DNA of 64,000 bases from a virus. The position numbers and the translations under genes are program-made. The stretch covers positions 46,396 through 110,395 of IMG/VR virus record IMGVR_UViG_3300046007_003718; one strand, written 5' to 3'. Shown here piece by piece: positions 1,047 through 64,000 of this stretch (positions within the stretch are counted from its first letter, which is position 1; each line of letters starts with the position of its first letter). The notes below the pieces were generated by a model. That model saw nothing but the letters and a program-made list of their open reading frames with translations, searched no databases and was not told where the DNA came from.

Positions 1047-1808
1047 CTAGGCCCCGTGGGGAGCCGTCACCTTGGGCTTGCGGGTCTTGCGGGCGACCAC
1101 CTGCATACGCTCGCCGCAGCAGGGGCAGATCGGCGTGCCAGCCGCTTCCAGCCACTTGGCCGTCATGTTGAGGTTGTAAACGTCCTTGCCCTCACCGCTG
1201 GGGTCGCAGCCACGGGTGCCGTCCTCCTGCGGGGTGCAGCAGGCGACCTTCACCAGACGGGTGGCCTGCGGCTTGTGGACGACGTTCATGCCCTTGTGCG
1301 GGTACTCGCCCAGCGACTCGCGCAGGCGGGCAGTCAGGGCCACGAAACGGTCCCCGGCGTAGGTGGCGGTGGGCTTGCCAGCGAGGCCGATGGTGCGAAT
1401 CATCTCCACGAACGGACCCTTGTGGCCGTTCTTGTTGCCGTCAATGGCGTGGACAATCTCATGGGCGAGAACGTCCAGCACACCCGGCTCGCGCTCGTCG
1501 TTGCCCAGCGTGTCCTTGCGGCCCGTCTTGGGGCCGATAGCGTGGGCAAGGGCGGGCGACACGGTGATGTGCCGCACGTTGCCCTCGGGCGAGGAAGTCT
1601 CATGGTAGGCCATGCCGACCACGGAACCCTTGCCGCTCTTACCCAGCCACGCCCGCTTGTGCGAAAAGGACAGGTGCGGGGCGACGGTGTAGCCCTCGGG
1701 CATCGGGAAGCCAGCCTCGGCCAGAATGGTGAGCAGGCCGTCAGTTGCGGCGGCGATGTAGGACTCAGGCGTGTCGTGGACCTGAGCGTGAATCGGTGAG
1801 TAACCCAT
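1047..1808 (-). CDS. SprT-like zinc metalloprotease
   Basis: A 253-residue protein with the zincin signature HEIVH at residues 116-120 and a further candidate zinc ligand, His129, nine residues later. SprT/SPRTN proteins have an HExxH active site plus a C-terminal zinc ribbon; here Cys pairs occur around residues 190-205 and as CPCCGE near residue 235. Eukaryotic SPRTN cleaves DNA-protein crosslinks; in phages the substrate is unknown, and proteolysis of host or DNA-bound proteins is inference. SprT-like genes are common in actinobacteriophages. The start is supported by AAGGAGACAG seven bases upstream. Two promoters lie upstream (1842-1870, 1909-1937) and a hairpin follows. It is one of the most G+C-rich genes in the window. 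Confidence 0.85.
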   Translation of the reverse strand: MGYSPIHAQVHDTPESYIAAATDGLLTILAEAGFPMPEGYTVAPHLSFSHKRAWLGKSGKGSVVGMAYHETSSPEGNVRHITVSPALAHAIGPKTGRKDTLGNDEREPGVLDVLAHEIVHAIDGNKNGHKGPFVEMIRTIGLAGKPTATYAGDRFVALTARLRESLGEYPHKGMNVVHKPQATRLVKVACCTPQEDGTRGCDPSGEGKDVYNLNMTAKWLEAAGTPICPCCGERMQVVARKTRKPKVTAPHGA

Positions 1809-6408: not shown

Positions 6409-6626
6409 TACATAACCTCCGGTGTAGGAATGTGCAGTCGAAGTCCACCAGCCTCGTAATCGTTCAGAGCATAGTGGATAGCATCAGGCAGGGTAGCAAT
6501 CATAGTCTCTACCTCCCCACCGTCGCCGGGACCACCATGATACCAGATATCCCAGCACCTATCATCCATCGCGGGATAAATGTCGTACACGAAGCCCTCG
6601 CCGTAGATACGATCAATAGTCCTCAT
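6408..6626 (-). CDS. Hypothetical protein, 72 aa
   Basis: The ATG at 6626 (MRTIDRIYG) is chosen because it overlaps only the acidic tail of the upstream gene by 14 bases. Contains a Gly-rich turn HGGPGDGG in the middle. Unrecognised. Confidence 0.65.
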   Translation of the reverse strand: MRTIDRIYGEGFVYDIYPAMDDRCWDIWYHGGPGDGGEVETMIATLPDAIHYALNDYEAGGLRLHIPTPEVM

Positions 6627-6936
6627 CGTCGTCCTCGTCCATCTCAAAGTCGAACTCCACGATGAGGCGAGCGACACGACCATCGTTGTCGTACTCAACG
6701 AACACCGGATAAACGCCGTCACCCCAGCCGGTGCTGGTGCAGACCGCATCAGAAAAACGACCCTGAGTAGAGAACTGCCCCGCCCGCTCGTCGCTCAGGC
6801 TAGCCGCACAAGCGCGACCATATGGGGAATCCTCACCGTACTCGCCGTCAAGGACGTAGCAGGGGTCCACAACGAACACCTGACCAGAATCAACGGGAAC
6901 CTGTCCCACCTTCACGCGCATACCAGACCTACTCAT
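6613..6936 (-). CDS. Phage protein with DPCYV motif, 107 aa
   Basis: The segment VPVDSGQVFVVDPCYV (residues 13-28) resembles a family of small phage proteins that carry a 'VDSGQL...DPcY' signature; I recall them as DUF4241-related but cannot check. The remainder is beta-rich and ends in a run of Asp/Glu. First gene behind the promoter at 6965-6994; function unknown. Confidence 0.7.
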   Translation of the reverse strand: MSRSGMRVKVGQVPVDSGQVFVVDPCYVLDGEYGEDSPYGRACAASLSDERAGQFSTQGRFSDAVCTSTGWGDGVYPVFVEYDNDGRVARLIVEFDFEMDEDDDEDY

Positions 6937-6964
6937 TACTGCCTCCTTTGTTGCTTGCTCGTCA

Positions 6965-7002: not shown

Positions 7003-7194
7003 TTAGATGCGGGTACGCTTGCTGCGCTGATTGACCCTCATCAGAATCTCGTAAACCTCAGCCTCATTCACCGCCTCATGCAGAGAATCAAACTCAGCAT
7101 CCGTGAACTCGCTCTCATCAATCACGATAAGATCATCCTCGTCGCATCCACCCCAACTGCCGTCAGCGGCGCTCATCCAGATCACACGACCCAT
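7003..7194 (-). CDS. Hypothetical protein, 63 aa
   Basis: An acidic middle (residues 18-50) and a basic C-terminus (NQRSKRTRI). Starts two bases after the upstream gene. Its stop is followed by ACGAG and a promoter, the usual gene-end pattern of this arm. Unrecognised. Confidence 0.7.
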   Translation of the reverse strand: MGRVIWMSAADGSWGGCDEDDLIVIDESEFTDAEFDSLHEAVNEAEVYEILMRVNQRSKRTRI

Positions 7195-8311: not shown

Positions 8312-8779
8312 CTATCCGTAGATGAGCCGACCGAACACAGCAATCTGAACCAGAACATCGGCGCAGTCTGCGTCAAGATAGCCGGGGTCGTTCTCACGAA
8401 GGGCACGCTGAATGTAGCCGGTGATGCTGGTGTTAGCAGGAGGCTCCTCCTGAACAAAGGTCTGGAAAGCCTTAGTCAGATTCTCAGCATTGACCGTATA
8501 AATAGGGGATTCGGTCTCAGCCACATCCTCATTCTCGCGGAGAGTAACCTCGTACCACAGTTCATCAAGAATGTCTCCACTCTCAGGCTTAGTTACCTTA
8601 ATGTTTAGAGCGTCAGCCCAATAGAAGGAAGCGCCATAGGAACCATCAAAAGCCCCGACAAGCACAGCGTCCACCATATGCGCGGTAATAGGAAGGGTCG
8701 TCGTGACCACACCAACCACCGTGGACTTGTCGTACTTCTCCTCTAGAGCCTTAAGACTCTCCGATACATAGTCACTCAT
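8312..8779 (-). CDS. Hypothetical protein, 155 aa
   Basis: GGAGCAAT precedes the ATG at 8779. Mixed alpha/beta composition, one short low-complexity Val/Thr strand (VVGVVTTTLPIT) near residue 22, acidic throughout. Unrecognised; first of two genes behind the promoter at 8809-8837. Confidence 0.7.
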   Translation of the reverse strand: MSDYVSESLKALEEKYDKSTVVGVVTTTLPITAHMVDAVLVGAFDGSYGASFYWADALNIKVTKPESGDILDELWYEVTLRENEDVAETESPIYTVNAENLTKAFQTFVQEEPPANTSITGYIQRALRENDPGYLDADCADVLVQIAVFGRLIYG

Positions 8780-8808
8780 ATTGCTCCTTTCGTTTTCCAT
8801 CTGAATAG

Positions 8809-8845: not shown

Positions 8846-9082
8846 TTATACTCCACGCCAACCAGAACAGGTGCCGCATGTGCAACAGCAACTTGTGGGG
8901 GATGCAAGCCAAAGGTAAGCGATAGCCCTCTCAGCATAACGTCCTTTACTATCGGCACAATAAATACGCTGCCAAATAGAGATTGTATCATCGCAGAAGT
9001 AACGCCTATGGGGGTTATCCCATGCCCTCTTATAGATAGGCTTATTAAACCACTCATTATTAGAGCATCCACATCCACACAT
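8846..9082 (-). CDS. Cys-rich protein next to tRNA-like RNA, 78 aa
   Basis: Ten Cys in 78 residues: CGCGC at residues 2-6 and a C-terminal cluster SCCCTCGTC, with two single Cys between. These could bind zinc or a metal cluster. AAAGGAGG lies seven bases before ATG. The gene starts 25 bases after the tRNA-like element, so both should be on the RNA released by the hammerhead ribozyme. I do not recognise the family; a protein partner for that RNA is speculation. Confidence 0.75.
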   Translation of the reverse strand: MCGCGCSNNEWFNKPIYKRAWDNPHRRYFCDDTISIWQRIYCADSKGRYAERAIAYLWLASPTSCCCTCGTCSGWRGV

Positions 9083-9107: not shown

Positions 9108-9201
9108 TACCCCTAGCGGGAGTCGAACCCGCGATAAACTTCCGCGTAAGCCAAGCGTCCTTGTGCGTTACCGGCGTCGTTGCCGCTAGACCATTAGGGG
9201 C
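9108..9201 (-). ncRNA. tRNA-like cloverleaf lacking a normal anticodon arm
   Basis: The 94-base element has a 7-bp acceptor stem (GCCCCTA/TAGGGGT), a D arm (GTC/GAC with a TAGCGGCAAC loop), and a perfect T arm at 9132-9116 (GCGGG-TTCGACT-CCCGC). No 5-bp stem with a 7-base anticodon loop can be formed. Instead bases 9174-9142 fold as a rod: CCG/CGG, GTAA/TTAC, GC/GC and CAAG/CTTG, with three single-base bulges and a GACG tetraloop. There is one extra base between acceptor and D stem, position 8 is A rather than U, and no CCA is encoded. It could be a non-decoding tRNA mimic, a degenerate tRNA, or a tRNA with an insert in the anticodon arm. Confidence 0.7.
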
Positions 9202-9451
9202 ATGAGTATTATAGACGGTTCCACAATCAAGTCAAAGGTAGGCTTGACGTAACAATGCCCGCTCCCTGCTCACCCGTCACCGACAACCGATTCCTTTAGT
9301 TTACTTATTATTAGTATAAATGGCTCTCGCGCCTAACGTCCCATATTGGTTGTTAGGATTTCCCGACCTACCAATCGGTTTCTTACGGAGATTCCTCCAC
9401 CCCACTAGGTCAAGAGTGGTAGCCCTCGCCTAGTAGGTCGTGAGAACCGCT
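9202..9451 (-). ncRNA. Structured non-coding RNA between ribozyme and tRNA-like element
   Basis: About 250 bases with no credible ORF on the coding strand. Perfect complementary segments include CGACCTAC (9440-9433) with 9371-9364, AACCGATT (9380-9373) with 9292-9285, CCTAAC (9357-9352) with 9337-9332, GGAG-GAAT-CTCC at 9398-9387, GTCAA (9248-9244) with 9235-9231, and GACGG (9278-9274) with 9218-9214. The first two interleave and would form a pseudoknot. The 5' end would be set by hammerhead cleavage after 9452 and the 3' end by processing at the tRNA-like 5' end. I do not recognise the RNA family. Confidence 0.6.
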
Positions 9452-9497
9452 GACGCCTCTCGGCGTTTCGTCCTATCAGGACTCGTCAGAGCGGCTA
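9445..9497 (-). ncRNA. Hammerhead ribozyme, stem I open
   Basis: All conserved elements are present in order. Stem I is CCGCT (9494-9490) with AGCGG (9451-9447), extended by a G-U and an A-U pair. The core is CTGACGA (9489-9483). Stem II is GTCC-TGATA-GGAC (9482-9470), followed by GAAA (9469-9466). Stem III is CGCC-GAGA-GGCG (9465-9454). TC follows, with the predicted cut after C9452. This fits the consensus CUGANGA, stem II, GAAA, stem III, UH. The ends open at stem I, as in type I hammerheads. Its 5' part overlaps the last codons and stop of the gene at 9476-9646, so cleavage would separate that mRNA from the downstream RNA. Confidence 0.93.
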
Positions 9498-9646
9498 GTT
9501 GCCATTACCTTCTTATGAACCTGCATAACCCAACCATCCTCAAAGTCGTGAGCATCACACGCCTCGCCAAGACTTTCGTAGGGGCCATAAGCCATGTACC
9601 CCGTAGAGAGATTACCGACAAGAAATACAAAAGTGTAGTCACCCAT
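9476..9646 (-). CDS. Hypothetical protein ending inside the ribozyme, 56 aa
   Basis: The ATG at 9646 (MGDYTFVFLV) follows AAAGGAGATAG. The small product looks alpha/beta and ends SRSDES. The last seven codons and the TGA also encode stem I, the catalytic core and half of stem II of the hammerhead, so the C-terminal residues may be constrained by RNA structure rather than protein function. Ribosomes reaching the stop would unfold the ribozyme, so translation could regulate cleavage (inference). Confidence 0.75.
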   Translation of the reverse strand: MGDYTFVFLVGNLSTGYMAYGPYESLGEACDAHDFEDGWVMQVHKKVMATSRSDES

Positions 9647-9676: not shown

Positions 9677-9705
9677 AGCATACAGCACTCAATCTAGAAA
9701 TGCAA
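9677..9705 (-). promoter_or_regulatory. Promoter for the hammerhead/tRNA-like operon
   Basis: TTGCAT (9700-9705), 17 bases, TATGCT (9677-9682), followed by GCTTG-TTGGG-CAAGC. It would drive the gene at 9476-9646, the ribozyme, the structured RNA, the tRNA-like element and the gene at 8846-9082. Confidence 0.8.
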
Positions 9706-61967: not shown

Positions 61968-63875
61968 TTAGTATTTCATTGCGTTAACATCATAATTTTC
62001 CTGCAAATGCTCAGGATTTGGATCATCTTCATCACGATCTATTGGATATTCATGAGCAATATCCGGTTGTGTATTAATTACCCTGCCGGAACCAAAGTCA
62101 TAAAAGGCTATTTGCTGCTCATTCTGAGCGAGCCTTAAAGCATCCATTTCGTTTGGAACAATTCTTACCAAGTCTAGGTACACTAAACCTTTACCATTTT
62201 TGGTGTCATTCCATGATCCGATCTTCACATCTGGATTCTTAGATAAAAATTTTGCATGTTCATTTTTAAATCTTTTCACATCATCTTCATCAAAATGTCT
62301 AATATCAATAGCAGTCCCGTGATCATTCAGTCCGACGCCAAAATCTTCCCCATCGAATCCTGAAAAATCAGAGTTCCAAGTGAAGCCTTGACCCTCTTTA
62401 AAAGTCTTACTCATTCCAGTATGAAAATCTGGATGCAGCGCGGCAAACTTATTTTTTGATGATATTTTATTTGCATATAGAGTATTCACGATATTCAACA
62501 ATTCTTGGCGATTATTTAAGGAAGGATGTTCAATGACTAAATCCATCAACTTTTTAATTACTTCTCCAACTTGTGGGCCAGCCGATATACCCAATACCTT
62601 GATAATATCATTTCCATTTATTGCAAGATCTTTTGGAGAAAAAACTGTTTGCGATGCTGTTTCGTTATCAACAAGATTTCTCATTTTGTCAACCATCATT
62701 CGTGTTGCTTGTTCATTTCCCTTACCCATATGATCTGCCTCTCTAAGATTGAGCAGATCGTTAGCAACTTCTGAGGAACCCGAATTATTAAGAAATTTTC
62801 TAGCGCCCTTTGGAGAATTAAAAGTAGGAAACATATGGTTGTTAATTAAATGTTTAACTCTAGAAATTCTATTTGCTGGATATCGCAGTTTTGACAAAAT
62901 TCCTTCTGCCATTTCTGCACCAACTTCATCATGATTAGCACCCTGTCCTTGCTCTCCCTTATAAAAATGTCCGACTCCGTTTTCATCTTCCCACATAGAA
63001 GATGGCTTGCCAATATCGTGCAGCAAAGCCGCCATACGAACATCTGTATCGTTAGTCAAGCCTGAAACGTTTTTCAATACATTCATAAGGTGAGTGCCAA
63101 GATCATGTTTATGGTAAGGATTTTTCTGATCAAAGCCAAACGTAGTATGCACTTCTGGCAAGAAATGCTTTAGCACACCAGTTTCTTGTCCAAGTTTAAT
63201 TGCTTCTGATGGATAGTTACCTGAAAGTATTTTCTCTAATTCCTGTCCAATAGTTTCCATTGGAGTATTTTTTAAATATGGGCCATGTAGCCTCATTTGC
63301 TCTCTTGTCTCTTCATCAGGCTGAAGACCATGCTTGCTCAATGCAGTTAACGCTCTCATTGTGCGAGAAGAATCATCTCGGAAAGAATTGGGGTGAACAG
63401 TTTTTAAAACGCCATTTTCAATATCTTTTAGACCGTCAAAGGGGTCAACAACTTTTCCAGTTTTTGCATTAACTGCAATTGCGTTAGCAGTAAAATCTCT
63501 TCTCTCTAAATCTTTCTCTACTGGAATAGATGAATCTGATTTTATTTGCCAATCTTTGTTACCTTCTCCAGTTTTTACTTCAATTCTAGGCAAAGCAATC
63601 TCTACTTCACTGCCTCCGTAATTAAATCTATAAACGGGAAATTGTTTGCCTGTTAGGGATAATTTTGCTTTTGGAACGCCTTTCAATACAGATTCTATGG
63701 TATCGCCGTTTACCTTAGCCATTAAATCAATATCTTTAGGCCTTTTACCGAGAACCACATCTCTTGGCGCTCCTCCAACTACATAAACTTCCCCAAAAGG
63801 AGAGAGACTGTCAACCGCCATCTTTGCAGCAGGATCATCATTTACTAATCTTAAAATATTTTCTGATAAATTCAT
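61968..63875 (-). CDS. cca: CCA-adding enzyme/poly(A) polymerase with C-terminal extension
   Basis: 635 residues. The class II nucleotidyltransferase head has VVGGAPRDVVLG (32-43), DID (48-50) and RRDFTANAIAV (125-135); an HD domain has LLHDIGK (284-290) preceded by HKHDLGTHLM. The enzyme adds CCA to tRNA 3' ends. The last about 160 residues form an extra domain (LSKNPDVKIGSWNDTKNGKGLVYLD in parts, ending QIAFYDFGSGR) of a kind I know from phage polyvalent or structural proteins. The gene lies in the virion/lysis region, far from the tRNA-like element. The ATG at 63875 overlaps the upstream stop. Confidence 0.85.
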   Translation of the reverse strand: MNLSENILRLVNDDPAAKMAVDSLSPFGEVYVVGGAPRDVVLGKRPKDIDLMAKVNGDTIESVLKGVPKAKLSLTGKQFPVYRFNYGGSEVEIALPRIEVKTGEGNKDWQIKSDSSIPVEKDLERRDFTANAIAVNAKTGKVVDPFDGLKDIENGVLKTVHPNSFRDDSSRTMRALTALSKHGLQPDEETREQMRLHGPYLKNTPMETIGQELEKILSGNYPSEAIKLGQETGVLKHFLPEVHTTFGFDQKNPYHKHDLGTHLMNVLKNVSGLTNDTDVRMAALLHDIGKPSSMWEDENGVGHFYKGEQGQGANHDEVGAEMAEGILSKLRYPANRISRVKHLINNHMFPTFNSPKGARKFLNNSGSSEVANDLLNLREADHMGKGNEQATRMMVDKMRNLVDNETASQTVFSPKDLAINGNDIIKVLGISAGPQVGEVIKKLMDLVIEHPSLNNRQELLNIVNTLYANKISSKNKFAALHPDFHTGMSKTFKEGQGFTWNSDFSGFDGEDFGVGLNDHGTAIDIRHFDEDDVKRFKNEHAKFLSKNPDVKIGSWNDTKNGKGLVYLDLVRIVPNEMDALRLAQNEQQIAFYDFGSGRVINTQPDIAHEYPIDRDEDDPNPEHLQENYDVNAMKY

Positions 63876-64000
63876 CAAGCAATCCTCTGGCCAATGTTTC
63901 TTAATCTGTCAAAAGTTCCATTATTGTCAAGAAATTTATAGATTATATTACCTTCACTGTAATCGCCATAAATTACTTGATCTTCTTTTCTTCTTTGCCT
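63875..64000 (-). CDS. Partial protein, C-terminal 41 residues only
   Basis: The end of a gene cut by the right edge, stopping at TGATG shared with the cca start. Residues shown are charged (RQRRKEDQVIYGDYSEGN) and end LRNIGQRIA. Not identifiable. Confidence 0.6.
   Translation of the reverse strand, partial: RQRRKEDQVIYGDYSEGNIIYKFLDNNGTFDRLRNIGQRIA

Follow-up and report, generated by a model that had tools for sequence, protein, structure and literature searches.

The stretch of viral DNA analysed here (the window; 64,000 nucleotides (nt), bases 46396–110395 of a 110-kb IMG/VR virus record) holds a cassette of three parts, all of whose features lie on the minus strand: a hammerhead ribozyme (9496–9445) is followed by a non-coding RNA of about 250 nt and then by a tRNA-like structure (TLS; 9201–9108). 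The layout was proposed by an earlier account made from the letters of the window (the sequence-only reading), which suggested that it be sought in relatives, and we find it there as one block, with differing neighbours, in two further phage lineages (three IMG/VR records). The three lineages, all of uncultivated bacterial viruses, are the window phage (G000, with copies L123/L125), G001 (L129/L134/L145, 129.6 kb) and L041/L126, two records of 77 and 92 kb that agree over the stretch compared. We conclude that the cassette represents a real and conserved family of phage RNAs, apparently not described before, which carries a hammerhead at the 5′ end and a tRNA mimic as its 3′ domain; the literature searched, whose coverage did not extend to subscription journals, held no description of a hammerhead–RNA–TLS layout.

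The first part is a type I hammerhead (9445–9496), delimited by its RF00163 match, by pairing across the three lineages and by the local minimum-energy fold. Stem I (AGCCGCU/AGCGGUU, 9496–9490/9451–9445) encloses the core CUGACGA (9489–9483), stem II (GUCCU/AGGAC, 9482–9478/9474–9470), the core GAA (9469–9467), stem III (ACGCC/GGCGU, 9466–9462/9457–9453) and C17 (9452). The structure has the hallmarks of its type, namely a CUGANGA/GAA core, A15.1–U16.1, an NUH triplet (GUC), three helices and an open stem I. In an 801-base Infernal scan, the match to RF00163 (Hammerhead_1) covers 9495–9446 on the minus strand (29.0 bits, E = 6e-5), which does not reach the gathering threshold of 34 bits even though the core is complete; over the whole 110-kb record it is the sole match, with E = 2.0e-6. 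Folded locally, all three lineages give precisely the hammerhead as the minimum-energy structure (−20.6 to −21.5 kcal/mol). Across these lineages the ribozyme pairs are formed in 97.9% of the cells, compared to 33–55% when the partners are slid, and stems I and III each have one double change. The self-cleaving-type ribozyme claimed by the sequence-only reading was found as a complete hammerhead, its extent refined to 9496–9445. The position of the conserved GUC triplet places the predicted cleavage site between C9452 and A9451 (9451–9452), and a cut there would yield a 5′-OH RNA starting AGCGGUUCUC.

The RNA between the ribozyme and the TLS consists of a multibranched 5′ domain (9322–9451), closed by GGUUCUC/GAGAGCC (9448–9442/9328–9322), an A+U-rich spacer (9297–9321), and a 3′ domain (9208–9296). 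The sequence-only reading had claimed about 250 bases of structured RNA, and the 247-nt linker indeed folds at z = −2.97, with the 5′ domain alone at z = −5.6. Window and G001 share about 89% identity over the 5′ domain. An RNAalifold comparison of these two yields 41 pairs, none of which is broken; 4 are changed on one side and 3 on both sides, the latter in an internal stem, CCUAAC/GUUAGG (9357–9352/9337–9332), which becomes CUCAUC/GAUGAG in G001. L041/L126 have an unrelated 5′ sequence in its place, which is also structured (z = −2.8), and the 5′ domain may consequently carry specificity. When the cleaved products are folded, a terminal helix starts 1–3 nt past the predicted cut and the new 5′ end lies inside it, in all three lineages. 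The shared block, its covarying pairs and the terminal helix right after the predicted cut naturally suggest a 5′ end made by the hammerhead.

The spacer is defined by alignment, and in G001 about 60 nt are inserted there as an additional hairpin. The 3′ domain comprises UCGGUUGUCGGUGACGG (9290–9274) and UGUGGAACCGUCUAUAAU (9225–9208), both invariant in the three lineages, and between them a stem that varies in sequence and in length. A helix GACGG/CCGUC (9278–9274/9218–9214) around this variable stem is possible; it has rival partners at the 5′ end (in the window) and in the D region of the TLS, and its pairing has no covariation test because both of its parts are invariant. The linker had no Rfam match in any lineage, and the invariant 17-mer had no antisense partner of at least 10 nt anywhere else in the window. 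A coding frame across 9202–9445, which the sequence-only reading had named as evidence that would count against it, is absent: stop-free runs across the 250 nt reach 42 codons at most, and the frames are broken by stops in all three lineages. A coding reading of the small frame 9301–9405 was rejected, as its amino-acid changes (non-synonymous) fall exactly at compensatory RNA pairs.

The TLS (9108–9201) has a 7-bp acceptor, GCCCCUA/UAGGGGU (9201–9195/9115–9109), with the consensus GCCCCUA/UAGGGGY over the lineages, a 5-bp T arm, GCGGG-UUCGACU-CCCGC, whose loop conforms to UUCRANY, and the GG of a D-loop. It has no anticodon. Where a tRNA has its anticodon arm, the TLS carries AAC-GA-CGC-(variable stem)-CAAG-GACG-CUUG-(variable stem)-GCG-GAA-GUU, in which the variable stems stay paired with different letters in each lineage and the GACG tetraloop cap, CAAG-GACG-CUUG, occurs in all three in place of a 7-nt anticodon loop. 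The tRNA model (RF00005) scores 13.3, 20.3 and 22.7 bits in the three lineages against a cut-off of 29, the window having the lowest value. The cloverleaf described in the sequence-only reading thus stands as a fold, with its acceptor, T arm and D-loop GG at 9201–9108, but not as a true tRNA (13.3 bits). ARAGORN's call of a tRNA-Cys(ACA) at 9202–9107 is likewise wrong, since the anticodon arm is absent and the tRNA score is below threshold. A model built from the three TLSs (R1) gives them 115–127 bits and the best ordinary tRNA 34.6 bits, of which only the gap is informative because the same three TLSs built the model. Readings as a tmRNA (transfer-messenger RNA), a permuted tRNA or a group I intron were rejected, the order of the TLS being normal and contiguous and Rfam giving no intron and no full tmRNA match. 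L004, considered as a similar TLS, reads as a tRNA-Ser-like gene with a long variable arm.

A CCA-adding enzyme (tRNA nucleotidyltransferase with an HD domain; in the window 61968–63878, minus strand, with PF01743, PF12627, PF01966 and PF13735), which could supply CCA to the TLS, is encoded in each of the four phage records searched. Elsewhere in their genomes, G001 and L041/L126 carry about a dozen ordinary tRNAs in arrays. The enzyme lies near the contig end in the window record and its G001 homologue near the tRNA array, a placement that suggests that the window phage's own array may lie just past the contig end.

The relatives were reached by several routes. L041 was found by a hammerhead pattern scan of IMG/VR, with an ARAGORN 'tRNA-Cys(aca)' again about 330 nt downstream, and further relatives by scans with invariant stretches and by a terminase search. 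Terminase identity to the window phage is 83% for L041/L126 and 92% for G001. The TLS alignment has a mean column identity of 93% across the three lineages; by comparison, the product of the adjoining gene 8312–8785 shares 39% identity with its homologue in L041 and 52% with the one in G001. The cassette is far better conserved than the genes next to it and is therefore probably a real working RNA. Conservation extends to structure, whose lack in relatives would have told against the sequence-only reading: there is covariation in ribozyme stems I and III and in the 5′ domain. In L041, the block sits between homologues of the window genes 8312 and 12183, whereas in the window gene 8312 is downstream of the block and gene 12183 about 3 kb upstream, with other genes between. 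That the block stays together under a changed gene order points to a trans-acting RNA, and the change of neighbours in L041 makes a cis element of a single gene less likely.

Nucleotide searches of GenBank phages returned no match, and single-protein searches of IMG/VR with the neighbouring genes matched the same phage only. The terminase of the window phage shares 34–38% identity with its counterparts in phages of Mycobacterium, Rhodococcus and Gordonia, a likeness that makes an actinobacterial host likely. The distant relatives searched that exist as isolates, Bixzunavirus I3 and Tonenili, Rhodococcus phages E3 and Finch and Gordonia phage Stormageddon, had neither hammerhead nor TLS, only ordinary tRNAs. 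Pattern matches in L124, L146 (the sole match in bacterial genomes) and L160 look like chance, lie in coding sequence and were discarded. G+C content along the window falls from 65% (1–2 kb) to about 50% (3–14 kb) and about 40% (15–64 kb), and the small-gene and structural regions may consequently differ in history.

Upstream of the cassette, a 56-amino-acid open reading frame (9476–9646, minus strand; MGDYTF...RSDES) without a Pfam match has its stop codon within ribozyme stem II, an overlap that the sequence-only reading had not noted. It has a homologue before the cassette in G001 (53% identical) and none in L041/L126. Pattern listing places the promoter of this gene, TTGCAT-N17-TATGCT, at 9677–9705 on the minus strand, as in the sequence-only reading, and it belongs to a family of like sites on that strand at about 2.9–12.4 kb. 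The members of this family, mostly TTGcay-N16-18-TATGCT, stand before small genes at 2887, 3929, 4827, 5476, 8084 (this one with TATGAT), 9705, 10596, 11820 and 12399. A 36-nt repeat of the promoter and ribosome-binding-site region occurs elsewhere in the window phage's genome. Downstream of the cassette, a Cys-rich open reading frame of 78 amino acids (8846–9082, minus strand) has no conserved adjacency to it in relatives. Within the cassette lies a promoter-like element that the sequence-only reading did not consider, TTGACT-N16-TATAAT (9208–9235, minus strand). It matches 11 of 12 consensus positions, and transcription from it would be expected to begin 7 nt further on, at G9201 or close to it, where the TLS begins. 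The element is identical in L126, and G001 keeps the spacer TGTGGAACCGTC and TATAAT without the −35.

Taken together, we consider the cassette to be, with somewhat better than even confidence, a trans-acting phage non-coding RNA with a tRNA mimic as its 3′ part and a 5′ end that the hammerhead would generate. In this proposal, transcription would begin at the promoter near 9700 and pass through the small gene that precedes the cassette. The hammerhead, complete and conserved, would fold at once and cut at 9452/9451. The 3′ product, beginning AGCGG, would refold, and the folds suggest that its new 5′ end enters the terminal helix; the terminal helix competes with ribozyme stem I, which would favour product release. 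The mimic would most likely be retained as the mature, nuclease-protected 3′ end of an RNA of about 340 nt, trimmed at its 3′ end by tRNase Z-type enzymes, with CCA added by the phage's own enzyme. It would recruit a host tRNA-handling factor, and the 5′ domain would be the specificity part, for which an unrelated structured domain substitutes in L041/L126. We infer all of these cutting events, and the function, from anatomy and conservation. A circularization by RtcB was considered and rejected, there being a single ribozyme only and no RtcB in the four phage records.

Several observations weigh against this account. The two double changes in the ribozyme are reached by 143 of 500 shuffles and are weak with three sequences; the weight of the covariation rests on the summed counts and the slid controls, not on the ribozyme counts alone. 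The fold of the whole product in the window pairs the 5′ end with GAACCGU near the TLS, and not within the closing stem of the 5′ domain, which leaves the exact closing helix ambiguous. The fold of the 3′ domain does not outdo shuffled sequences in either the window or G001, and with only three lineages the 3′ domain and the TLS are mostly invariant and offer no covariation test. The discriminator N73 varies (A, G and U) and CCA is not encoded, which makes aminoacylation unlikely and 3′ maturation uncertain. The promoter-like element before the TLS, present in two of the three lineages, allows separate transcription. Lastly, the sequence cannot tell a retained TLS from one that is cut off.

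This last ambiguity is where the main competitors enter. The sequence-only reading proposed that RNase P and other tRNA processing make the 3′ end. A cut by RNase P at 9202/9201 would release a 250-nt RNA and leave the TLS mainly as a cutting signal, in the manner of MALAT1 and its mascRNA. Such a release is plausible, considering that G(+1) is present in all three lineages and U(−1) in two, that the 7-bp acceptor, intact T arm and D-loop GG could form the elbow, and that the product is structured. However, CCA is not encoded and the anticodon arm is absent, UGUGGAACCGUCUAUAAU just 5′ of the TLS is invariant almost up to the supposed cut, and conservation is highest in the TLS, unusual long arm and tetraloop included, which exceeds what a cutting signal needs. 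That conservation points to a functional product or a retained domain, and as an account of the whole cassette we find RNase P release somewhat unlikely. The claim of one processing unit is accordingly divided: the parts do travel together, with covariation in the ribozyme and the 5′ domain, but a TLS that serves only as a cutting signal is the less likely reading. The promoter-like element instead suggests two genes, a hammerhead-trimmed 5′ RNA and a leaderless TLS RNA started at G9201, an arrangement that the 11/12 consensus match, the start at the first TLS base and the identity in L126 make conceivable. G001 does not have the −35 and yet keeps TGTGGAACCGTC and TATAAT, although a promoter spacer should vary, and the region's other promoters differ (TTGcay...TATGCT); these facts favour an RNA role for the sequence, with the promoter staying as a rival, and we rate two genes as quite unlikely. 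Retention of the mimic in the RNA of about 340 nt is most likely, followed by RNase P release of the 250-nt RNA and then by a separate TLS transcript.

Two further explanations dispense with a trans-acting RNA. The ribozyme could split the upstream small-gene mRNA from the downstream mRNA, leaving the linker and TLS as the 5′ leader of the latter. Our survey of IMG/VR hammerheads (at least 120 stretches) gives this idea its appeal, as most of those on phage contigs, among the matches listed, sit right before start codons and a few before tRNAs; hammerheads that flank prophage genes have also been described (Perreault et al. 2011, PMC3088659). But both neighbouring genes change between lineages while the RNA is conserved, and a leader needs no tRNA fold directly before a ribosome-binding site, making a cis element improbable. 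The block could also be a tRNA gene in decay plus a spacer, in which a hammerhead-like sequence arose by chance. This would fit the sub-cut-off tRNA scores of 13–23 bits, but hardly the 93% identity in three lineages whose neighbouring genes are 39–53% identical, nor a hammerhead with E = 2.0e-6 in the record that is present in all three lineages; we consider it highly improbable.

Many phage and bacterial hammerheads are known, and their function is not agreed. That function would gain a concrete, testable example from a conserved cassette whose ribozyme generates the 5′ end of a defined non-coding RNA, and an anticodon-less tRNA mimic in a phage RNA points to contact with RNase P, a tRNA-end enzyme or the ribosome during infection. 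The phage and prophage type I hammerheads (RF00163) share with ours a complete core, an open stem I and the GUC triplet; what follows here is a conserved non-coding RNA and a tRNA mimic, not a gene, and the score is under the gathering threshold. The MALAT1 and MEN-beta transcripts carry a tRNA-like 3′ processing signal (mascRNA). The likeness is that of a non-coding RNA directly before a tRNA-like cloverleaf that RNase P could cut, whereas the present case is from a bacterial virus, with a predicted hammerhead 5′ end, no anticodon loop and a TLS that is the best conserved part.

Like tmRNA (RF00023), the TLS is a tRNA mimic without an anticodon loop, in which a long helix replaces the anticodon arm, and the tmRNA T arm matches that of the TLS at 18.5 bits, over 18 nt only. 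In contrast to tmRNA, the cassette is contiguous, with no tag frame found, no Ala G3–U70 pair and no full match, and ARAGORN reported no tmRNA. GOLLD and ROOL are large phage RNAs, often near tRNAs, and resemble the cassette as phage structured RNAs beside a tRNA-like element. The cassette is much shorter (about 250–340 nt), lies outside a tRNA array and has a hammerhead at its 5′ end, and the GOLLD and ROOL Rfam models gave no match in it, neither at gathering nor at E ≤ 5–10.

Other couplings of ribozymes and tRNAs appear among the surveyed stretches. L026 (10982–11320, plus strand) and L075 (7680–7520, minus strand) have a hammerhead, two short hairpins (AAAGCGAACGURGCUUUGA and GGGCRUAGCCC) and a tRNA-like fold in which a long arm or short loop replaces the anticodon arm; compared with the cassette, the linker is only about 45 nt, and the sequences of linker and TLS are unrelated. 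Since this unrelated pair combines a hammerhead with an anticodon-less TLS, the layout may be wider. Hammerheads also occur in phage tRNA arrays in L090 (~8387–8480), L094 (~6865–6960), L113 (~7066–7160) and L095 (~6471–6570), all on the plus strand. There the predicted type I cut is the exact 5′ end of a tRNA-Tyr gene (missed by ARAGORN in L095), and the acceptor 5′ strand forms part of ribozyme stem I, which puts the ribozyme in the place of RNase P. In L048 (~1426–1600, plus strand), the predicted cut of a long-stem-III hammerhead falls directly before a tRNA-His gene. Separately, an unannotated stretch of L163 (about 760–1400; Xanthomonas phage Olaya, MW802488, ~18.9–19.6 kb) has several T arms, each followed by an acceptor, a short loop and a 5′ tRNA half, and resembles circularly permuted tRNA genes between repeats like GGTTACTTC and GTTCCCCAGC.

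The coupling of ribozyme and tRNA is therefore not unique; a conserved structured RNA between a ribozyme and a tRNA mimic is found, among the matches listed, only in this phage group. We tentatively suggest, as a possibility that we hold at well under even confidence, a new class of ribozyme-trimmed phage RNAs with an anticodon-less tRNA-mimic end and exchangeable 5′ effectors. Such RNAs would work in trans, with the host's translation or tRNA machinery as their target, and would have turned up in phages that are not related to each other (this group and L026/L075). As a natural ribozyme–RNA–tRNA cassette, the element resembles the engineered ribozyme and tRNA cassettes that are used for guide RNA release.
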